Below are positions 9,822 to 49,770 of a DNA stretch of 64,000 nucleotides, piece after piece. The notes under the pieces were generated by a model. It was not told where the DNA came from. It ran no database searches and was given only the letters and a program-made list of their open reading frames with translations. The first letter of the stretch is position 1, and each line of letters starts with the position of its first letter. The position numbers and the translations under genes were made by a program. Source of the stretch: Mycetocola zhadangensis (lineage in GTDB: Bacteria > Actinomycetota > Actinomycetes > Actinomycetales > Microbacteriaceae); NCBI RefSeq assembly GCF_003668565.1, contig NZ_RCWJ01000001.1, forward strand, positions 744,001 to 808,000, written 5' to 3'.

Positions 9822-9850
9822 TTGTTCTAGTTGAACTAGAACTATAGAAT
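9822..9850 (+). promoter_or_regulatory. Promoter and operator of the GntR/DUF1648 operon
   Basis: A -35 box TTGTTC (9822-9827) and a -10 box TAGAAT (9845-9850) are separated by 17 nt. The palindrome TTCTAGTTGAACTAGAA (9825-9841), with perfect 8-bp arms around one base, overlaps the -35 box and fills most of the spacer. The -10 box ends 6 nt before the ATG at 9857, so the mRNA is probably leaderless. A repressor bound here would exclude RNA polymerase; the adjacent GntR protein is the likely ligand. Confidence 0.65.
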
Positions 9851-40059: not shown

Positions 40060-41103
40060 TCAGGCCAGGCCGATGTCGTCGAGCTGTTCGAGCATCCCGG
40101 CACCATCCGGGGCGTAAACCCAGGGGATCTTCGACTCGTGCTCTTCCGGTTTTGAACGACCTCCCGCGAGGACCGCCTCGCCGGGGGACAGCTGACGGAT
40201 GGCCACCGCGGCGACGTTGGTGGGGAATCTGCTCGCGAACTCGCCGTACAGTTCCTCATCGTGCTGTCCGTCGTCTCCAACGAGCAGCCACTTGATCTGC
40301 GGAAACTCTTCGGCAAGCCGGCGCAGGTTGTTGGCCTTATGGGCACGGCCGCTTCGGAAGAAACGGTCGTGGGTGGGGCCCCAGTCGGTGAGCAACAGAG
40401 CACCGGAGGGATACAGGTGACGGGTGAGGAAGCGCGACAGCGTCGGTGCGACATTCCAGGCGCCCGTCGAGAGGTAGATCACCGGCGATCCGGGGTGGTC
40501 GCGAACGACCCGTTCGAGGAACACAGCCATGCCGGGGACAGGGGTCCTGGCGTGCTCGTCGAGGACGAAGGTGTTCCAGGCCGCGACGAACGGGCGGGGC
40601 AGCGCCGTGACCATGACGGTGTCATCGATATCGGAGAGCACGCCGAACCGAACCTCAGGGTCAACGATGAAGACGTTTTCAACCACGGGCCGCGAATCCT
40701 CGGCCTGCAGAGTGATTTGCTGCCAGCCGGGTTCAAGCTCGACCGCGATGCGCGCGTCGATAACTCCGCCCCTGTCAGCCTTCACGACGTGCGTTTCCGT
40801 GCCAACGGTGATCGTGACCTCGGCGGCGACGACGGGGATGCTTGTGAAGCTCCGCCACCCTCGAACACGCTGAACGGGCGTTGCCGTCTGCGCCACGTCG
40901 GGCTTGACCAGCAGAACTCGAGCGAGTACACGTACCCAGGTTGTTGATCCATACCCGGTGTAAGGAATGACGGCGGCCTGCAGTCCCTTACGTCGACCAC
41001 GGCGGGCCCGCCAGTCCAGGAACGCATCATCAATTCGCGCAGCCCTGTGCAGCCTCAGCACGGCCAACGGGGTCTCCCTTGCGGGCTTATCGCGTGACTT
41101 CAC
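40060..41103 (-). CDS. App1-family phosphatidate phosphatase-like protein (DUF2183)
   Basis: This 347-aa protein resembles the catalytic part of yeast App1. The HAD-like aspartate motif is FGVLSDIDDTVMV (about 170-182). VIYLSTGAWNVAPTLSRF and LLVGDDGQHDEELY supply the other catalytic loops. The N-terminal ~165 residues form a beta-rich domain. Bacterial App1 relatives are not well characterised, so the natural substrate is unclear. Confidence 0.88.
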   Translation of the reverse strand: MKSRDKPARETPLAVLRLHRAARIDDAFLDWRARRGRRKGLQAAVIPYTGYGSTTWVRVLARVLLVKPDVAQTATPVQRVRGWRSFTSIPVVAAEVTITVGTETHVVKADRGGVIDARIAVELEPGWQQITLQAEDSRPVVENVFIVDPEVRFGVLSDIDDTVMVTALPRPFVAAWNTFVLDEHARTPVPGMAVFLERVVRDHPGSPVIYLSTGAWNVAPTLSRFLTRHLYPSGALLLTDWGPTHDRFFRSGRAHKANNLRRLAEEFPQIKWLLVGDDGQHDEELYGEFASRFPTNVAAVAIRQLSPGEAVLAGGRSKPEEHESKIPWVYAPDGAGMLEQLDDIGLA

Positions 41104-41150: not shown

Positions 41151-41825
41151 TCAGTCAGCGTCGGCGGCGTTTGTGTCGCTCTCGTCGGGGTGATTCATGT
41201 GACGCTCTTGAGACCGTTTGAGAACCAGCTTCACGACGTACGCGATCAGGAGGAACCCGGCAATGATTCCCACAAAGATGTACCCGGCGTAGTGCAGCTG
41301 GTCAGCGAGCTGTCGGTACGTGCCCGCAGCGGCCGAACCCACGGATACGTAGGCGACAGACCACAACAGGCAAGCAGGAATGGTCCAGCTGATGAATCGG
41401 CGGTACGTCATGGTGCTCATTCCGACCGTGAGCGGAATCAGGGAGTGAAGCACGGGCAGAAAGCGGGAGACAAAGACCGCGATACCGCCTCGCCTGTCGA
41501 GATAATTCTCGGCGCGCTGCCACTGCCGAACGCCGATCTTTTGTCCAAGTCGGCTTGCGCGAATGCGTGGACCGAAGTACCTGCCGAGGGCGAAACCGAT
41601 AGTTTCGCCGGCGAGCGACCCGATCACCACCGCGGCGATGAGAGCGACGAATTGCGCTGGGCCATCGACGGCGGTACTCGCGACGATAACGACGGTGTCG
41701 CCTGGCACGATCAGTCCCACCAGGACACTCGTTTCGAGCAGCATGGCAATCCCGGCGAGCAGGGTGCGCAGAATCGGATCGACGCTCTGCACGACGTCAA
41801 GCAGCCAGGTGAGGATCTCGTTCAC
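41151..41825 (-). CDS. DedA family membrane protein
   Basis: This 224-aa polytopic protein of the VTT/DedA superfamily is linked to lipid-carrier recycling and membrane homeostasis. The motif FVSRFLPVLHSLIPLTVGMS (about 115-134) and GSLAGETIGFALGRYFG are characteristic. GTG 41825 (MNEILTWLLDV) was chosen because upstream residues are cysteine- and serine-rich and overlap the neighbouring gene. Confidence 0.9.
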   Translation of the reverse strand: MNEILTWLLDVVQSVDPILRTLLAGIAMLLETSVLVGLIVPGDTVVIVASTAVDGPAQFVALIAAVVIGSLAGETIGFALGRYFGPRIRASRLGQKIGVRQWQRAENYLDRRGGIAVFVSRFLPVLHSLIPLTVGMSTMTYRRFISWTIPACLLWSVAYVSVGSAAAGTYRQLADQLHYAGYIFVGIIAGFLLIAYVVKLVLKRSQERHMNHPDESDTNAADAD

Positions 41826-41844
41826 GATGCAGAGCCTAGGGGCA

Positions 41845-42786
41845 TTAGATGAGCACCAACAGCACGGTAGGAATGACCAGGAGCGCGGTTGCGGCGAGCA
41901 GGACGACCGCACGAGCACTTGAAGAGAGCGGATGTTGTGGGTTGAGCAGGCGAACCACTCGCGGTCCCACGAGTCCAGGCTCGATCTCTCCGCGATTGGC
42001 CCAGGTCAGTTCAGGGGCACCCGGGTCGGTTGCGGCTCCCGAGCCGACCAAGGCGATCGCTGTCGCCAGTGTCCGGTCATCTGTCGCCCGCCGCGCCTGA
42101 TCGTCAGCGAGCATCTCGACGAGCACCGCGACAGCGGTTTCCGCGCGGTTGGCAATGGGGAACCACGGCAGTGCACTGTGCCATGACTTGAATGCCAGAA
42201 GAACCAGGTGGTGCTGCTGGGCCAGGTGGGCGTTCTCGTGCGCGATGACCGCTCGCAGTTGCGACTCGTCCAAAAGGGTCAACAAGCCCTCGGAAAGAAC
42301 AGTGACCGAGCTTGTCGTGCCTGGCAGGCAATAGGCGACGGGGGAGGGGTGGTCGAGCACGCGGGTTCCCGGGTTGCCCTCGAGCGGTGCGCTCAACAGG
42401 TTCACCAGCGAGAGGTGCCGAGCGCGCTGCTTCTCGCTTCGCACAACCGTGAGGAGAAGACTCAGCAGGAGATGTCCGGTCAGAAGCGCAGCAAGGCACA
42501 GCGCGAACATCTGGCTGAAGTTGGCGTCGGGGGGCAGCGTTCCGGCGAAGAGGTGACGAACGAACTCGAATCCACCCTCGATGAGGTTGCCACCGAAAGG
42601 GATGAGGCCGTAGAGAACGAGTGAGCCAATCATCGACAGGCCACCGGCGAGCGCAATTGATTGCCAGAGAACGAGGGCCGTCCCCGGGGCCCGCGCCGGC
42701 CACGCCGCGCGAGCCAGAATCAGTGGCACCGGCCACGCGAGCGTCAGGGCGAGAGCAGCCAGAACGACCGAGGCGGTGAACATCAC
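41845..42786 (-). CDS. M56-family membrane metallopeptidase (BlaR1/MecR1-like)
   Basis: This 313-aa integral membrane protease has helices near 5-27, 38-62, 90-115 and at the C-terminus (about 292-312). The zinc-binding HENAH sits at residues 183-187 in AVIAHENAHLAQQHH. It lacks the extracellular penicillin-binding sensor domain of BlaR1, so the signal it senses is not a beta-lactam bound to a PBP domain. The adjoining BlaI gene makes it the likely protease that relieves BlaI repression. Confidence 0.9.
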   Translation of the reverse strand: MMFTASVVLAALALTLAWPVPLILARAAWPARAPGTALVLWQSIALAGGLSMIGSLVLYGLIPFGGNLIEGGFEFVRHLFAGTLPPDANFSQMFALCLAALLTGHLLLSLLLTVVRSEKQRARHLSLVNLLSAPLEGNPGTRVLDHPSPVAYCLPGTTSSVTVLSEGLLTLLDESQLRAVIAHENAHLAQQHHLVLLAFKSWHSALPWFPIANRAETAVAVLVEMLADDQARRATDDRTLATAIALVGSGAATDPGAPELTWANRGEIEPGLVGPRVVRLLNPQHPLSSSARAVVLLAATALLVIPTVLLVLI

Positions 42787-42802: not shown

Positions 42803-43171
42803 TCAGGAGTTGCGAGTTCCGCTCAGCAGGGCACGCAGGGTCTCTGCCTCTTCGGGGCTGACCTGGCCGACGAATCGTGCCAGTGCGGCTTCGCGGTCGG
42901 GTGCCGAACCGAGCACCTCGTGCATGAGATCTGCTGTGTGCTCTGCGCGAGTGGTGACTGAACGGTACAGGTGAGGGCGGCTCGAACGATCCCGCTCGAC
43001 GAATCCCTTGTTCTCCAGTCGGGAGAGCACGGTGAGCACGGTGGTGACGGCGAGTTCCTTGGCGCCGTTCGCCGAGTCGAGCCTGTCGCGGAGTTCGTTC
43101 GCGCTGAGCGATCCGTCCGCGCCCCAAAGGACATCCATGACGGTTCGTTCGAGTTCACCCAGTGTTGCCAT
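42803..43171 (-). CDS. BlaI/MecI/CopY-family repressor
   Basis: This is a 122-aa winged-helix repressor. MATLGELERTVMDVLWGADG and LAVTTVLTVLSRLENKGFVE (recognition helix and wing) are the family DNA-binding region. The C-terminal helices mediate dimerisation and contain the region cleaved in MecI/BlaI. The M56 protease gene follows after 16 nt. The promoter region it shares with cydA contains three palindromes, the probable operators. Confidence 0.93.
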   Translation of the reverse strand: MATLGELERTVMDVLWGADGSLSANELRDRLDSANGAKELAVTTVLTVLSRLENKGFVERDRSSRPHLYRSVTTRAEHTADLMHEVLGSAPDREAALARFVGQVSPEEAETLRALLSGTRNS

Positions 43172-43201
43172 GAGTCAAGAATACGTCCAGTTCCGAAAAA
43201 G

Positions 43202-43218
43202 TTCTACATTCGGTAGAA
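43202..43218. promoter_or_regulatory. BlaI-type operator 1 (TTCTACATTCGGTAGAA)
   Basis: A 17-bp palindrome with TTCTAC/GTAGAA arms, 31 nt before the blaI start. It is the weakest of the three, as the inner bases are not symmetric. Its centre is 22 bp from that of operator 2, two helical turns. It is close enough to blaI for autorepression. Confidence 0.7.
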
Positions 43219-43223
43219 ATAAG

Positions 43224-43240
43224 TTCTACGACGCGTAGAA
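43224..43240. promoter_or_regulatory. BlaI-type operator 2 (TTCTACGACGCGTAGAA)
   Basis: A 17-bp palindrome with TTCTACG and CGTAGAA arms, almost perfect. It lies between the starts of blaI and cydA. Its centre (43232) is 22 bp from operator 1 and 44 bp from operator 3. Confidence 0.75.
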
Positions 43241-43267
43241 CTGCGTCTATGCTTCAAGAGAAAGGTT

Positions 43268-43284
43268 TTCTACGCGGCGTAGAA
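43268..43284. promoter_or_regulatory. BlaI-type operator 3 (TTCTACGCGGCGTAGAA)
   Basis: A 17-bp palindrome with TTCTACGC and GCGTAGAA arms, perfect around one central base. It ends 17 nt before the GTG of cydA, so it overlaps the cydA leader or promoter start region and could block cydABDC transcription. Confidence 0.75.
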
Positions 43285-43301
43285 GACTAAGTGGAGGTGT
43301 T

Positions 43302-44714
43302 GTGAACGAGCTACTCGATCCGCTGCTGCTGTCCCGCTGGCAGTTCGGGCTGACGACCATCTATCACTTCCTGTTTGTGCCTTTGACGATCGGTATGGCG
43401 CTCACTGTCGCCATCTTCCAGACGGCGTGGGTGCGAACGGGTAAGACGCACTACCTTCAGCTCGTCCATTTCTTCGGCAGGATTTTCCTCATCAACTTCG
43501 CGATGGGCGTCGTCACCGGCATCGTTCAGGAGTTCCAGTTCGGCATGAACTGGTCTGACTACTCCCGCTTTGTCGGCGATGTCTTCGGTGCCCCGCTCGC
43601 GTTCGAGGGATTGCTGGCCTTCTTCCTCGAAGCAACCTTCATCGGCTTGTGGATCTTCGGCTGGGACAAGCTGCCCGAAAAGCTTCACCTCGCGACGATC
43701 TGGATCGTCGCAACTGCGAGCATCCTCTCGGCATATTTCATCATTGCGGCTAACGCGTTCATGCAGAACCCCGTCGGCTTCAGGATCAATGAGGAGAAAG
43801 GGAGAGCGGAACTCACCAGCATTTGGGAGTTGCTCACCAACCCCGTGGCCCTCGCCGCGTTCCCGCACACAATCTTCGCCTGCTTCATGGTGTCGGCCGG
43901 CCTGATCATCACGGTTGCTGCCTGGCACCTGTCGAAGAACCAGCACCTCGACACCATGCGGCCGACGCTGAAGTTCGGCTTGTGGGCGATGCTGATCTCC
44001 GGAGGTCTCACCACGCTTGCCGGTGACCAGCTCAGCCTCGCCATGGTGGCAACGCAGCCCATGAAGATGGCCGCAGCCGAGGCGATGTACGAAACGTCAA
44101 CCGGTGCGGACGCGTCGTTCTCGATCTTCACACTGGGTACTCCGGACGGCGTTCATGAACTCTTCTCGATTCGCATTCCATACCTGCTCTCATTCCTGTC
44201 GACGCACACCTTTGACGGCACTGTCGAAGGCATCAACAACCTGCAGGAGCAGTACCAGACCCTGTACGGCCCCGGCGACTACACACCGATCATCTGGGTA
44301 ACCTACTGGTCGTTCCGTTGGATGATCGGCCTCGGTCTGCTGCACATCTTTGTTGCGGTTGTCGGCCTGTGGCTCACCCGCAAGGGACAGCTCCCAACCA
44401 ACAAGTGGGTGTGGAAGGCTGCGGTCTGGTCGTTCCCACTGTCCCTTGGAGCGATGATCGTCGGCTGGGTGTTCACGGAAATGGGACGGCAACCCTGGCT
44501 GGTCTTCGGGCTCCTCGAAACAGCCGACGGAGTGTCACCTGGTGTGACAGGCATTGAAGTGCTGATCTCGCTCGTCGTGTTCACCGTCGTCTACGGTTCT
44601 CTCGCCGTCGTCGAATTTCGCCTCATCAAGAAGGCCGCCCAGGCTGGCCCCGCCCCGCTCGGCGATCCCGATGAACAAACCGGGAAGCCCCTCGTCCACA
44701 CGACCGTCTACTAG
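43302..44714 (+). CDS. cydA: Cytochrome bd ubiquinol/menaquinol oxidase subunit I
   Basis: This 470-aa membrane subunit oxidises quinol and carries hemes b558, b595 and d. Heme ligand candidates are His22 (TIYHFLF) and His189 (PHT), and the buried glutamates are Glu102 and Glu110 (FEGLLAFFLE). The GWVFTEMGRQPW motif near 387 belongs to the quinol site. The Q-loop is short. GTG start with GGAGG upstream. The promoter probably lies among the BlaI-type palindromes. Confidence 0.97.
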   Translation: MNELLDPLLLSRWQFGLTTIYHFLFVPLTIGMALTVAIFQTAWVRTGKTHYLQLVHFFGRIFLINFAMGVVTGIVQEFQFGMNWSDYSRFVGDVFGAPLAFEGLLAFFLEATFIGLWIFGWDKLPEKLHLATIWIVATASILSAYFIIAANAFMQNPVGFRINEEKGRAELTSIWELLTNPVALAAFPHTIFACFMVSAGLIITVAAWHLSKNQHLDTMRPTLKFGLWAMLISGGLTTLAGDQLSLAMVATQPMKMAAAEAMYETSTGADASFSIFTLGTPDGVHELFSIRIPYLLSFLSTHTFDGTVEGINNLQEQYQTLYGPGDYTPIIWVTYWSFRWMIGLGLLHIFVAVVGLWLTRKGQLPTNKWVWKAAVWSFPLSLGAMIVGWVFTEMGRQPWLVFGLLETADGVSPGVTGIEVLISLVVFTVVYGSLAVVEFRLIKKAAQAGPAPLGDPDEQTGKPLVHTTVY

Positions 44715-44723
44715 GAGGACACC

Positions 44724-45761
44724 ATGGATCTCACGGTTCTCTGGTTCGGCATCATCGCCTTCCTGTTCATCGGATACTTCGTCCTCGACGGCTTCGACTT
44801 CGGCGTGGGAATGGCAATGCCGTTCGTCTCGAAGGATGACACCGACCGGCGAGTGGTCATCAACACCATCGGTCCGGTCTGGGACCTCAATGAGACGTGG
44901 CTCATCGTGGCCGGAGCGTCTCTCTTTGCGGCGTTCCCCGAGTGGTATGCGACTCTGTTCAGCGGGTTTTACCTGCCTCTGCTGCTGATCCTCGTTGCCC
45001 TCATCCTGCGCGGCGTGTCCTTCGAATACCGCCACCAGCGCCCCGAACGTCTGTGGAAGCAGCGGTTCGACAGGATGATCGTGTTCGGCTCTGCCGTTCC
45101 GGCGCTGCTCTGGGGTGTCGCATTCGCGAACATCGTGCGCGGTGTTCCCCTCGACTCAGGACACAACTACACGGGCACAGTTTTCGACCTGTTGAACCCA
45201 TACGCACTTCTCGGCGGAGTCACAACGCTTCTGCTCTTCTTGACCCACGGAGCCTTGTTCCTGGTGCTGAAGACCGAGGGACCGATCCACTCGAGGGCTC
45301 GAACCCTGGCTTTTCGCGCCGGAGTGGTGACCGTCGTGGTCGCCGCCGTGTTCCTGGCCTGGACGGTGCTCGAGTTTGGCACCCTGCCGGCACTCGTTCT
45401 CGCGGCCGCCGCCGCCGTCGCGCTCATCGCCTCGGTCGTCGCGAACATCCGTCGCAAGGAAGGAGCGGCGTTCACACTGATGGCCTTCACCATCGGCTTT
45501 GCGGTTCTCACGCTCTTCGCGTCGCTGTTCCCGGCTGTCATGCCCGCGAGCAACGACCCGGCGAACAGCCTGACGATCGCCAACGCGTCATCAAGCCCGT
45601 ACACCCTCCAGGTGATGAGCTGGACGGCCCTCGCCGCGCTGCCGTTGATCCTCGCCTACCAGGTTTGGACCTACTGGGTGTTCCGCAAACGGGTGACCCG
45701 CTCCCACATCGACTCGGCTGCCCACCCGGACACCGAAGCGACAGTTGAAGCGGCGCACTAA
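44724..45761 (+). CDS. cydB: Cytochrome bd oxidase subunit II
   Basis: This 345-aa partner of CydA starts with the family helix FLFIGYFVLDGFDFGVGMAM, and GPVWDLNETWLIVAGASLFAAFP and SFEYRHQRP follow. These are the conserved contacts with subunit I. ATG 44724 with AGGAGG upstream. cydD follows 3 nt after the stop, completing a cydABDC operon. Confidence 0.97.
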   Translation: MDLTVLWFGIIAFLFIGYFVLDGFDFGVGMAMPFVSKDDTDRRVVINTIGPVWDLNETWLIVAGASLFAAFPEWYATLFSGFYLPLLLILVALILRGVSFEYRHQRPERLWKQRFDRMIVFGSAVPALLWGVAFANIVRGVPLDSGHNYTGTVFDLLNPYALLGGVTTLLLFLTHGALFLVLKTEGPIHSRARTLAFRAGVVTVVVAAVFLAWTVLEFGTLPALVLAAAAAVALIASVVANIRRKEGAAFTLMAFTIGFAVLTLFASLFPAVMPASNDPANSLTIANASSSPYTLQVMSWTALAALPLILAYQVWTYWVFRKRVTRSHIDSAAHPDTEATVEAAH

Positions 45762-45764
45762 CCT

Positions 45765-47417
45765 GTGAAGGTGCGTCCCCTTGATCCCCGACTCCTTCGC
45801 TATGCGGTCAGCGCCAGATGGTTCCTGGCCGGTGGGGCAGCCCTCGGTCTAGCGACCACCGCCTGCATCCTGGCGTTCGCGTGGCTCATCACCGAGTGCG
45901 TCACCGGGGCGATCGAAGGCCGCGGCCTCACCGAGCTCTCCCCGTACATCGGCATACTGGCCGCAGTCGCGTTACTGCGGGCCGGCCTGGTTTACGCACA
46001 GGACCTGATCGCAGCCCGCGGCGCTGCAAAGGTCAAGAGCGAGCTGCGGCTCGGGGTACTCGACGCGGTGCGTCGGCTCGGTCCCTCGTTTCTGGCCGAG
46101 CGCAACAGCGCCCGCGTCGCGACGCTGCTCGGCAGGGGCATGGACGCACTCGACGACTACTTCTCGAAATACCTGCCCCAGCTCATCCTCACCGTCATCG
46201 TCACGCCCATCGTGGTGTTCGTTGTGCTTCTTTCCGACTGGGTGTCCGCGGTGTTCATTCTGGTGACCCTGCCGCTCATTCCCGTCTTTATGGTGCTGAT
46301 CGGCTGGGCTACCCAGGCGGTCCAGCGAAAGCAGTGGTCAGTGCTCGGTGACCTCTCCAGCGGCTTCGTAGACACGCTCGGTGGCCTCGCAACCCTCAAA
46401 ATTTTCGGTAGAGAATTCCGACAGGTCAAACGGATGCGATCAATCACGACCGCCTATCGGGTCCAGACGATGCGTGTGCTGCGGATCTCCTTCCTCTCGA
46501 GCTTCGCGCTCGAACTGGCGGCCAGCCTGTCGGTTGCGCTTGTCGCGGTCTCCATCGGCCTGCGGCTGGTTGACGGCTCACTCGGCTTGTCTGTTGGCCT
46601 TTTTGTGCTGCTGCTCGCTCCGGAAGCCTTCCTGCCGCTGCGCCAAGTTGGAGCGAACTTCCATGCGTCGGCCGAGGGCGTTGCCGCGGCTGACGACGCA
46701 TTCGCCCTGCTTGACGACGCACGGAAGATCCCGGCCGACGCGACTCCCGCGCTCGATCACGGCGCTCTGGTCTCGGGGGTGCTGTCCCTCCGGGACGTCA
46801 CGGTCGACTACGGGGAGGGTGCCGTAGCGGCGCCGGTCTCCGTCGACTTTACTCCGGGAGTCCTGACCGTTCTTGCCGGTCCAAGTGGTGTCGGCAAGTC
46901 CAGTCTGCTCGCGGCGATTCTCGGCTTTGCACCGTACTCCGGGTCCGTCAGCCTTGGCGGGCATCCGATTTCGTCGTCAGCGACGGAACGCGGCTGGCTA
47001 GCCTGGGCCGGGCAGCGCCCTTCACTCAGCATGGGCACAATCGCCGACAACGTTGCGCTCGGTTCCGACAAGGTCGACCTCGGCCTGGTCGGCCGGGCGC
47101 TCCAGCTCGCAGCCGCGCCAGAGCTCGACCCCGACCTCCCCGTTGGGGTTGGTGGGGCAGGCCTTTCCGGTGGCCAGGCGCAGCGCGTCGCCCTTGCACG
47201 TGCCATTTACCGCGCACTCGACCGTCGCTGCGCGGTGCTGCTCCTCGACGAGCCAAGCTCCGCCCTCGACCACGCCACAGAGGCGCGTCTTCTCGATGGA
47301 CTCGCTGCCGTGGCACGCACAGGCATCGCGGTCGTTGTGGTCAGCCATCGGCAGGCCGTGATCGAGCGCGCCGACTCGGTCGTTCGGATCTCGCCCCGAT
47401 CGGCGGTGACGGTATGA
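45765..47417 (+). CDS. cydD: Thiol reductant ABC exporter subunit CydD
   Basis: This is a 550-aa ABC half-transporter with a membrane domain (about 1-320) followed by the ATPase. Walker A is AGPSGVGKSS (near 371-380), the signature LSGGQAQRVALARA, and Walker B VLLLDEPSSALD. With CydC it exports cysteine or glutathione to allow cytochrome bd assembly. GTG start, and the end overlaps cydC by 4 nt. Confidence 0.95.
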   Translation: MKVRPLDPRLLRYAVSARWFLAGGAALGLATTACILAFAWLITECVTGAIEGRGLTELSPYIGILAAVALLRAGLVYAQDLIAARGAAKVKSELRLGVLDAVRRLGPSFLAERNSARVATLLGRGMDALDDYFSKYLPQLILTVIVTPIVVFVVLLSDWVSAVFILVTLPLIPVFMVLIGWATQAVQRKQWSVLGDLSSGFVDTLGGLATLKIFGREFRQVKRMRSITTAYRVQTMRVLRISFLSSFALELAASLSVALVAVSIGLRLVDGSLGLSVGLFVLLLAPEAFLPLRQVGANFHASAEGVAAADDAFALLDDARKIPADATPALDHGALVSGVLSLRDVTVDYGEGAVAAPVSVDFTPGVLTVLAGPSGVGKSSLLAAILGFAPYSGSVSLGGHPISSSATERGWLAWAGQRPSLSMGTIADNVALGSDKVDLGLVGRALQLAAAPELDPDLPVGVGGAGLSGGQAQRVALARAIYRALDRRCAVLLLDEPSSALDHATEARLLDGLAAVARTGIAVVVVSHRQAVIERADSVVRISPRSAVTV

Positions 47418-49132
47418 GTGCCGCTTCGAAAACCGGACGCCGTGAGACATTCGCGATCCTGAGAACCGCCCTCCCGGTAACGACAGGTGGCGTTCTCGGT
47501 GTGCTGTTCGGGATCCTCGCAGCTCTCTGCACGGTTGCCCTGTTGGCAACGAGCGCGTACCTGATCACTCGTGCAGCCGAACAGCCCCCGATCCTCTATC
47601 TGTCCATGGCCGTCGTCGGCGTGCGGGCGTTCGCCCTCGGACGCGCCTTTTTCCGATACCTGGAACGGCTGGCCAGCCACGACGCCGCCTTCCGTCAGCT
47701 CGAAACGGTGCGGGTGGACCTGCTTCGTCGGCTCATTCCGCTTGCACCAGACGGACTGGGGCGTTCTCGCCGCGGCTCGCTCTTGTCGTCCCTGGTCTCG
47801 GATGTGGATGAGCTGCAGAACCTGCCGCTTCGCGTGCTCCAGCCGCTTGTGACATCCGTCGGTGTCGCAGCCATCGCCGTGTGGGTTGTGGCGATTCTGT
47901 CACCGGCCGCGGCGGTCGGCCTGGCGATTGCGTTGCTCGCGGCCTTCCTCATCGGAACCCTTGTTGCCGCCCGATTGGCCGCATCAGCCGAGAGGTCGCT
48001 CGCCCCGCGTCGTGCGGCGCTTGTGGACGCCGTCCTGGACTACCTGAGCAATCTCGATGTCCTCATTGCCTACGGAGCCGAGCAATCGGGCAGGCGCACC
48101 GTGGAGGCAGCGGACGCCGCACTCACCAGGGCGCTGACCGCACGGGCTGCCGGCGTTGGAATCGCCGGGGCGTCACTCTCCTTGTTTTCCGGGCTCGCGG
48201 TCGCCTGGTCGCTCGTTGCCGGGATACCCGCGGTGTCGACCGCGGGGAGCACGCTGAGCGGACCGGCACTCGCTGTTATCGTGCTGGTGCCGCTGGCCGT
48301 CTTCGAAATCGTCGCGAGCGTTCCGCTCGCTGCGAGCGCATGGCGGCAGGTGCGATCCAGCGCCGAACGAATCGCGAAGATCGCCCCGGCTGACGTGCCG
48401 GCGGAGCTTCCGCTCGATGGCGGAAGCGCTGGGTGGGCGCCGCAGCCTGGGGCACCAGTGCTCGAGCTGTCGGGGGTCCAGGCAACCTGGCCTGGTGCGG
48501 AGCAGCCGGCACTCACCGTCGACGCTTTGCGAATCGAAACAGGAGAGCGCGTCCTGATTGAGGGAATGAGCGGTGCCGGAAAGACGACGCTGGCGCATGT
48601 GCTTGTGCGGTTCCTCGAGTACGACGGCACGTACCTGCTTGCCGGTCAGGACGTGCGAAACCTCCCGCTTGAATCCGTTCGGGGTTTCGTCGGGTTGTGT
48701 GAGCAAGTGCCCTACCTGTTCGATGAAAGCATCCGGCAAAATTTGCTCTTTGCACGCGACACCGCGACCGACGCCGAACTCACGGACGTTCTCGACCGGG
48801 TGGGGCTCGGGCAATGGCTGGTCGCCCGTGGCGGGCTGGACTCCAGGGTGGGGGAGCGCGGCGCGCTCGTCTCGGGCGGGCAAGCCCAACGCATCGCCCT
48901 CGCTCGAGCGCTGCTTCGCGATTTCCCGGTGATCGTGCTCGACGAGCCGACCGCGAACGTTGAAGCCGATCTCGCAGAGAGCCTGCTGCGCGACCTGCTC
49001 GGCGCCACGAACGACGCGGGTCGCGCAGTTATCCTCATCTCCCATGCGGACGTTCCGGCGTCGATTGTCGATCGTCGCATTCGGATCTCGCACGGCACAC
49101 TGCAGTCGGTGGCACCACAATCACCGTTGTGA
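47414..49132 (+). CDS. cydC: Thiol reductant ABC exporter subunit CydC
   Basis: This 572-aa ABC half-transporter is the partner of CydD. After the membrane domain (six helices, about 15-310) come Walker A GMSGAGKTT (around 385), the signature VSGGQAQRIALARALL and Walker B VIVLDEPTANVE. The gene starts in the overlap ATGA with cydD and its end overlaps the open frame of the next TetR gene, whose own start lies 17 nt later. Confidence 0.94.
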   Translation: MSAASKTGRRETFAILRTALPVTTGGVLGVLFGILAALCTVALLATSAYLITRAAEQPPILYLSMAVVGVRAFALGRAFFRYLERLASHDAAFRQLETVRVDLLRRLIPLAPDGLGRSRRGSLLSSLVSDVDELQNLPLRVLQPLVTSVGVAAIAVWVVAILSPAAAVGLAIALLAAFLIGTLVAARLAASAERSLAPRRAALVDAVLDYLSNLDVLIAYGAEQSGRRTVEAADAALTRALTARAAGVGIAGASLSLFSGLAVAWSLVAGIPAVSTAGSTLSGPALAVIVLVPLAVFEIVASVPLAASAWRQVRSSAERIAKIAPADVPAELPLDGGSAGWAPQPGAPVLELSGVQATWPGAEQPALTVDALRIETGERVLIEGMSGAGKTTLAHVLVRFLEYDGTYLLAGQDVRNLPLESVRGFVGLCEQVPYLFDESIRQNLLFARDTATDAELTDVLDRVGLGQWLVARGGLDSRVGERGALVSGGQAQRIALARALLRDFPVIVLDEPTANVEADLAESLLRDLLGATNDAGRAVILISHADVPASIVDRRIRISHGTLQSVAPQSPL

Positions 49133-49149
49133 GGTACAAAGGAGAGACC

Positions 49150-49770
49150 ATGAGTGACACTGACGCACAACCGGTCGGCCTCCGCGCGCGCAAGCGTGCG
49201 GCGACCCGCTCCGCGATCGAGCAAACCGCGATCCGACTGGTGCGCGAGCACGGGTACGACCATGTCACGATCGAGATGGTGTGCGATGAAAGCCAAGTTT
49301 CGCAGCGCACGTTCTTCAACTATTTCGGATCGAAAGAGGGTGTGATCCTCGGACCCCCGCCCTCACTCGACGCTCTCGACGGAAAGCGATTCGTCGCGGA
49401 GCGTGGTGACGATATCGTCCTCGATCTCGTGAGAATCGTGGCATCCGCTCTTCTGGATGACACCCTGGACGCCGAGCTTCTTCAGGCCAGGTTTCTCATC
49501 ATCACGACCACACCTGAACTCCTCGGACGCCAGATGGTGTGGATGAACACGCAGGAAGCCGACCTCACCGACCTCGTCCTACGGCGGTTCGCCGTAGAGA
49601 AACGAACCGGGGATGACCTGCGCGACGAGGCAGCGATGGTTGTCGCTCTCGCGTTCACGGCCCTGCGCTTCGCCCTGCAGAAACTGTTCGCCGAGTCGGC
49701 GTCCGGGTCGGCCGAAGACATCCTCGTTCACGCTTCCACCCTGATCCGACGGATCGCCCAGGCGGGCTGA
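49150..49770 (+). CDS. TetR/AcrR family transcriptional regulator
   Basis: This is a 206-aa repressor with the helix-turn-helix about 40-60 (HVTIEMVCDESQVSQRTFFNYF, then GSKEGVIL). The C-terminal domain carries no readable ligand signature. ATG 49150 has AAAGGAGAG upstream, a better start than GTG 49129. It is the last gene behind cydABDC and may share its transcript, thus a second possible control layer on that operon. Confidence 0.9.
   Translation: MSDTDAQPVGLRARKRAATRSAIEQTAIRLVREHGYDHVTIEMVCDESQVSQRTFFNYFGSKEGVILGPPPSLDALDGKRFVAERGDDIVLDLVRIVASALLDDTLDAELLQARFLIITTTPELLGRQMVWMNTQEADLTDLVLRRFAVEKRTGDDLRDEAAMVVALAFTALRFALQKLFAESASGSAEDILVHASTLIRRIAQAG

Follow-up and report, generated by a model that had tools for sequence, protein, structure and literature searches.

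A BlaI-type repressor and a membrane protease, encoded by adjacent genes next to cydABDC in Mycetocola zhadangensis (Microbacteriaceae), probably form a BlaI/M56-type switch of respiratory capacity, or oxidative phosphorylation, that acts on cytochrome bd above all and not on a beta-lactamase, as judged from the sequences and their conservation. The genes lie in the window that we analysed, a stretch of 64,000 nucleotides (contig NZ_RCWJ01000001.1 of assembly GCF_003668565.1, positions 744,001 to 808,000). An initial annotation of this window had already placed cydABDC, instead of a beta-lactamase, under the control of the pair; the conservation of the predicted operators supports this choice of a respiratory target, but the proposal was narrower than the data, in which other respiratory operons of several genera carry such sites as well.

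Between blaI and cydA there are three perfect dyads of the form TTCTAC-N5-GTAGAA (centres 43210, 43232 and 43276, i.e. 22 and 44 base pairs (bp) apart; all features are collected in Table 1), the last of which ends 17 nucleotides before the GTG start codon of cydA at 43302; the centres and spacings given in the initial annotation were reproduced by a pattern scan. TAC/GTA dyad operators are a hallmark of the BlaI/MecI family, and the three dyads are likely to be operators of BlaI. A chance origin was rejected: the window contains 6 matches at up to two mismatches versus 0.47 expected, a number reached in 0 of 100 shuffles; the three are the only exact dyads in the genome (3,322,056 bases), which has two one-mismatch sites elsewhere; and the dyads recur in other genomes of the family. 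Dyads 2 and 3 bracket a -10-like hexamer of cydA, the placement expected of repressor operators, and by eye this hexamer is kept in the two nearest relatives (TAGGCT in L111, TACGCT in L112). The candidate -10 of blaI lies six nucleotides ahead of the ATG and therefore suggests that the blaI message is perhaps leaderless.

The repressor contains the Penicillinase_R domain (PF03965, E 1.2e-21, 77.7 bits versus a cut-off of 22.6) and resembles the BlaI/MecI family both in this domain and in its predicted TAC/GTA-type operators (82 sites in 38 loci, with TACTAC variants, see below). Its sole sequence match in the PDB is 2g9w (E 2.2e-15), which we take to be the BlaI of Mycobacterium tuberculosis. 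CopY and TcrY are further repressors of this family (the NCBIfam match is weak, at 30.6 bits versus a cut-off of 121.95) and carry a C-terminal cysteine metal motif, whereas the Mycetocola protein has no cysteine at all, on which ground its identity as a CopY-type metal repressor was rejected. Elsewhere in the same genome (G000 C1:1231442-1231735, L008) there is one more Penicillinase_R match, a weak one of 24.5 bits.

The protease matched the M48 model of Pfam (PF01435, E 4.4e-11) and shows four membrane segments in a simple hydropathy scan (residues 1-28, 38-64, 90-117 and 286-313 of 313). Its motif residues are HENAH at 183-187, E224 and A227-D228, and of these H183, E184, H187, E224 and D228 are unchanged in 27/27 aligned sequences, in keeping with the gluzincin pattern HEXXH...E (the BlaI and protease alignments, A1 and A2, take in 25 and 26 of 38 relatives). 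The chain stops at residue 313, inside the fourth hydrophobic segment, and therefore has no space for a C-terminal extracellular penicillin-binding sensor domain, the absence of which had been predicted correctly. A PDB search with the protease sequence returned zero matches. The fourth segment is itself absent from some relatives (L113, L131 and L136) and may be dispensable. The label M56, taken over from the initial annotation, is used because of the location beside BlaI, the topology and the motif; these three traits stand, but in a Pfam scan at E ≤ 0.001 no M56 model was matched and PF01435 was the sole model, which counts against our reading along with the points gathered further below. 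The arrangement recalls that of Staphylococcus aureus, where BlaR1 cleaves BlaI between Asn101 and Phe102 (PMC9834060): both consist of a repressor and a membrane gluzincin of the HEXXH...E type. A candidate cleavage site of the Mycetocola repressor is at Phe100, which is unchanged in 26/26 aligned sequences and pairs with a Phe of 2g9w. The two systems differ in that the Mycetocola protease has no extracellular penicillin-binding domain and in that the target is a respiratory operon.

Sixty genomes of the family were sampled, of which 21 have a close BlaI (54-100% identity) and 46 have cydA. The 21 all have blaI and cydA in divergent orientation; exact dyads separate the two genes in 20, and the remaining genome (G049) has two one-mismatch dyads in their place. 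The initial annotation had named, as a result that would refute it, relatives that share the gene order but lack the dyads; the dyads were instead present in 21/21 family genomes with a close BlaI beside cydA, as well as at 38/38 loci of named genomes (see below). None of the 25 cydA genomes without a close BlaI has an exact dyad at any position, and the totals of exact dyads amount to 62 in the 21 close-BlaI genomes (44 in the blaI-cydA gap) versus 4 in the other 39. In G006 a distant BlaI (48%) lies beside cydA with TACTAC-type dyads between them, and G034 has a one-mismatch dyad 164 bp upstream of its cydA match, the sole BlaI match in that genome being distant and located elsewhere.

Beyond the family, 48 BlaI loci were found in named genomes, and the 38 with at least 56% identity were counted (the ten below, L149-L158, were left out; L149-L151 have no CydA match and no dyad). 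These 38 span Okibacterium, Mycetocola, Leifsonia, Cryobacterium, Salinibacterium, Subtercola and kin, Arthrobacter and Geodermatophilaceae. Dyad and protease match are present at each of them, and cydA adjoins BlaI in 36; it does not in Salinibacterium soli or in Arthrobacter sp. H14, whose locus is close to a contig end. At most one mismatch is found in 82 dyads of these loci, 74 of which are perfect; the arms are constant and the N5 spacer is variable. In a class-wide sample the BlaI profile was matched in 115/197 genomes, and the neighbours were read at 50 loci (30 with flanks of 1.5 kilobases (kb), 20 mostly with ~3 kb). There, cydA was near BlaI in 27/50 loci from seven families (f1, the family of Mycetocola, and f2, f21, f23, f30, f32 and f38). 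The CydA proteins concerned are 29-100% identical to that of M. zhadangensis, and 8/8 of the more distant ones that were scanned matched PF01654 (E ≤ 1.3e-106), so the regulator has accompanied more than one lineage of CydA, indeed several. With a BlaI of 43-48% identity, the dyad reads TACTAC-N5-GTNGTA or close to it (9/9 intergenic regions scanned), and in f23 two TACTAC-type dyads are 22 bp apart in 5/5 regions. The f7 and f20 loci that were read have the BlaI-protease pair without cydA. In f38 (two loci, L404 and L405) the genes for BlaI and the protease point the same way as cydAB, and ~300 bp separate the protease match from that of CydA. Several f21 loci (L367, L370-L375) have the exact TTCTAC-type dyads ahead of a very dissimilar CydA, which shares 29-32% identity and matched PF01654 in each of the three proteins scanned.

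These surveys bear on the reading that the dyads serve blaI autoregulation alone, cydA being a passive divergent neighbour. Autoregulation is common among such repressors, one dyad is near the blaI promoter, and 8/8 BlaI-protease pairs read in f7 lack cyd within ~3 kb. Two of the three dyads bracket the cydA -10, however; in four f21 loci (L367, L371, L373 and L374) an exact dyad lies ~70 bp upstream of the cydA match and ~700 bp or more from blaI; G034 keeps its dyad before cydA with nothing but a distant BlaI elsewhere; and dyads occur in trans at the operon for cytochrome c biogenesis (ccs). The ccs dyads in trans and the cydA-proximal dyads of f21 led us to disfavour autoregulation alone, which we regard as highly improbable.

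Further operons carry dyads. In M. zhadangensis one of the two one-mismatch sites is 8 nucleotides upstream of the ccs operon (His-phosphatase-ResA-CcdA-ResB) and the other precedes a gene for a DUF308 membrane protein; both recur in the congener G002, and at each M. zhadangensis site the dyad's right arm continues into TAGACT, a -10-like hexamer. The ccs operon and the DUF308 gene are probable co-targets of BlaI. The promoters of ccs, ctaC, atpB and ctaE were then compared over 42 genomes, half of which have a close BlaI (the same 21 as above) and half of which have cydA but no close BlaI (G006 and three more cydA genomes were left out). Dyads with at most one mismatch were found upstream of ccs in 6/21 versus 0/21, of ctaC in 3/21 versus 0/21, of atpB in 3/21 versus 0/21 (p 0.12) and of ctaE in 2/21 versus 0/21 (p 0.24), the latter two not being significant singly. 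Pooled, this amounts to 14/84 versus 0/84 (Fisher p 3.4e-5), a value that is optimistic because the targets were picked after reading the sites of G000, G001, G007, G033 and G040; the ccs comparison without G000 and G002 gives 4/19 versus 0/21 (p 0.04).

The dyad-bearing genes included: atpB in three genera (G001, G007 and G040), ctaC (G007, G033 and G040), ctaE-qcrC (G007 and G033), ctaA (G007), a ctaB-like gene (G033), and hemA/hemE and pta (pta-ackA; both in G001 and G033). G001 has in addition two exact dyads at the flavohaemoglobin gene hmp, two dyads at a NarK-like/molybdenum-cofactor pair (NarK score below the NCBIfam cut-off) and a dyad upstream of a membrane gene that is followed by a nitrite-reductase-like gene (below the NCBIfam cut-off and cut by the stretch edge). 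M. zhadangensis itself has a two-mismatch dyad (TGCTACAGTTTGTAGAG) 98 nucleotides upstream of its atpB match (L276, C4 near 208000), a position near that of the exact or one-mismatch dyads in G040 and G001 (-107). Outside blaI-cydA the 21 genomes contain 18 exact sites, nine of which are at the respiratory-type genes listed here. The one-mismatch sites outside the cyd locus number 28 in five genomes; 3 fell within the promoter comparison and 14, picked by eye, were read. Respiratory, haem or pta genes account for nine of the 14 and the DUF308 gene for one; the other four (L263, L265, L266 and L270) lack a clear respiratory target. Two sites in G053 (L101 3816 and L102 3652) were rejected as operators, the dyad being the tip of longer inverted repeats that are probably terminators; such tips are a trap for dyad searches.

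A number of results weigh against a respiratory switch as proposed here. With one mismatch allowed, the 21 close-BlaI genomes contain 139 sites, which is not above the 149 of a backward-pattern control (48 versus 145 in the 21 genomes without a close BlaI). Among the 18 exact sites that are not at blaI-cydA, seven show no clear connection with respiration (they lie upstream of pdxS, a MarR-MFS pair, an adenosine deaminase gene, a DUF1254-like gene and a G007 gene, in the tilS-ppa gap and near a radical-SAM gene, with names read from translations) and two are inside longer inverted repeats. At the four extra operons 12/21 close-BlaI genomes have no dyad with at most one mismatch and 9/21 have at least one; outside the genomes that suggested the targets, only ccs and one ctaC site (G033) replicate, while atpB and ctaE add 0; and 5/21 of the genomes used as those without a close BlaI have a distant one. 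In the class survey 23/50 loci showed no cydA within the flanks read. Finally, the BlaI of M. tuberculosis also controls blaC.

We infer BlaI binding, repression and cleavage by the protease as parts of the following mechanism. BlaI dimers would occupy the dyads around the cydA -10, reaching the blaI promoter region, and would there repress both cydABDC and the repressor-protease pair. An impaired respiratory chain, or a need for more respiratory capacity, would activate the protease, which would cut BlaI near Phe100, so that BlaI would leave the DNA and cydABDC and the pair would be derepressed. In some relatives the same switch may reach ctaC, ctaE-qcr, ctaA/ctaB, hemA/hemE, atp, pta-ackA, hmp, narK-like and nitrite-reductase-like genes; joint derepression of cyd, aa3, bc, haem, cytochrome c and ATP synthase genes would make this a capacity switch and not an oxidase swap. 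Because BlaI is cysteine-free and the protease has no outer domain, the signal probably enters via the membrane part or a partner protein, and it might be the quinone redox state, membrane energisation or failure of the terminal oxidase (low oxygen, nitric oxide (NO) or copper shortage).

Copper status as such could be what the regulator follows, copper shortage (which disables the aa3 oxidase) inducing the copper-free bd oxidase together with cytochrome c and oxidase assembly. The sites at ctaC, ctaA/B and ccs would suit this, as would exact dyads before PCu(A)C-DyP genes in two small-genome relatives (in one of them with a distant BlaI alongside). In M. tuberculosis, cydABCD goes up in a sigC mutant starved of copper (PMC7924339). 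Yet a BlaI without cysteines offers no CopY-type metal site, the protease would have to sense copper, and the targets also include atp, hemA, pta and narK-like genes, none of them a copper gene, which makes this reading distinctly improbable. The exact dyads upstream of the copper-chaperone (PCu(A)C) and peroxidase (DyP) genes are at 3541-3585 in L109 and 3948-3964 in L107; in L109 their neighbours are the distant BlaI and a short membrane protein, and a CopC gene lies farther along.

The pair could also be a stress switch of the classical type, for the envelope or for beta-lactams, with the protease sensing wall damage or the drug via a partner and cyd being one of several stress genes. This reading draws on M. 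tuberculosis BlaI, which regulates blaC and is tied to the beta-lactam response (PMC8265638, PMC12565901), and on the DedA-family gene (UptA-model matches below cut-off) directly downstream of the protease gene. We consider it unlikely in view of the missing penicillin-sensor domain, of the five exact or one-mismatch sites of M. zhadangensis, which are at cyd (three), ccs and DUF308 and 0 at a lactamase, and of the recurrent targets in relatives, which are respiratory.

Under the respiratory reading, M. tuberculosis BlaI (Rv1846c), whose neighbour is presumably an M56 protein, invites comparison. The chromatin immunoprecipitation regulon of this BlaI, of 2009, is said to include Rv1456c (CtaA-like) and yidC, which we did not use as evidence; Rv1456c has been described as part of an ABC transporter. 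The two repressors are alike in that 2g9w is the sole solved-structure match, and atp may be a common target: M. tuberculosis BlaI is reported as a repressor of the Rv1303-atp operon (PMC12565901) and named as regulator of the atp operon (PMC5874750), to be set beside the atpB dyads of three genera here (3/21 versus 0/21 at up to one mismatch, with a two-mismatch dyad only in M. zhadangensis). A bioenergetic BlaI target was therefore already known, and what appears to be new is the link to cytochrome bd, its spread over families and the respiratory regulon, none of which was found in searches of open-licence PMC literature. We tentatively suggest that the actinomycete pair may ancestrally sense the state of the respiratory chain, the short protease doing so within the membrane, and set the oxidative-phosphorylation capacity (cytochrome bc and the terminal oxidases, the assembly of haem and cytochrome c, ATP synthase, and anaerobic and NO-detoxifying genes), mycobacterial beta-lactamase control having come later.

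Other actinobacterial regulators of cyd are redox, cyclic AMP, phosphate or haem systems, and we know of none among them that acts by repressor cleavage. The tuning of respiratory oxidases involves Rex in Streptomyces, Crp and SenX3-RegX3 in mycobacteria and HrrSA in Corynebacterium (PMC5355995, PMC7739888, PMC7337898, PMC5874750), the control of cydAB being credited to SenX3-RegX3 in M. tuberculosis (PMC5874750) and to Crp in M. smegmatis (PMC7739888). The tuning of cytochrome bd, bc-aa3 and ATP synthase in actinobacteria is only partly understood, and these enzymes are mycobacterial drug targets; a repressor-protease pair viewed as a switch of antibiotic resistance could be the respiratory regulator that is missing in many families. 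In that case the odd connection of M. tuberculosis BlaI with ATP synthase would be simply explained.

Table 1. Features of the blaI-cyd locus (positions in the window; -10 hexamers and operators are predictions)
Feature	Position	Strand	Basis
Membrane metalloprotease with four transmembrane segments (M56/M48-like gluzincin), 313 amino acids	41845..42786	-	Pfam PF01435 E 4.4e-11, motif, hydropathy
BlaI-type winged-helix repressor, 122 amino acids	42803..43171	-	PF03965, PDB 2g9w match
Probable blaI -10, TATTCT	43178..43183	-	by eye; similar hexamers in some relatives
Dyad 1, TTCTACATTCGGTAGAA, blaI-proximal predicted operator	43202..43218		exact pattern match
Dyad 2, TTCTACGACGCGTAGAA, predicted operator upstream of cydA -10	43224..43240		exact pattern match
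Probable cydA -10, TATGCT, between dyads 2 and 3	43248..43253	+	by eye
Dyad 3, TTCTACGCGGCGTAGAA, predicted operator just past the inferred cydA transcription start	43268..43284		exact pattern match
cydA, cytochrome bd subunit I	43302..44714	+	PF01654 E 2.3e-160
cydB, cytochrome bd subunit II	44724..45761	+	PF02322 E 8.1e-113; TIGR00203 above cut-off
cydD	45765..47417	+	TIGR02857 above cut-off
cydC	47414..49132	+	TIGR02868 above cut-off
TetR-family gene, overlapping the cydC 3' end	49129..49770	+	PF00440; MftR-like match below cut-off

Among the neighbouring genes, the TetR-type gene behind cydC is kept in Okibacterium (L111, 76%) and may provide a second layer of control. On the other side of the locus the DedA-family gene (41151-41918), with UptA-model matches below cut-off, directly follows the protease gene on the same strand; it is followed, again on the same strand, by a gene for an APP1-like phosphatase (40060-41103), and both possibly share one transcript with the protease gene. 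A separate 17-bp palindrome, TTCTAGTTGAACTAGAA, is located at 9825-9841 of the window.

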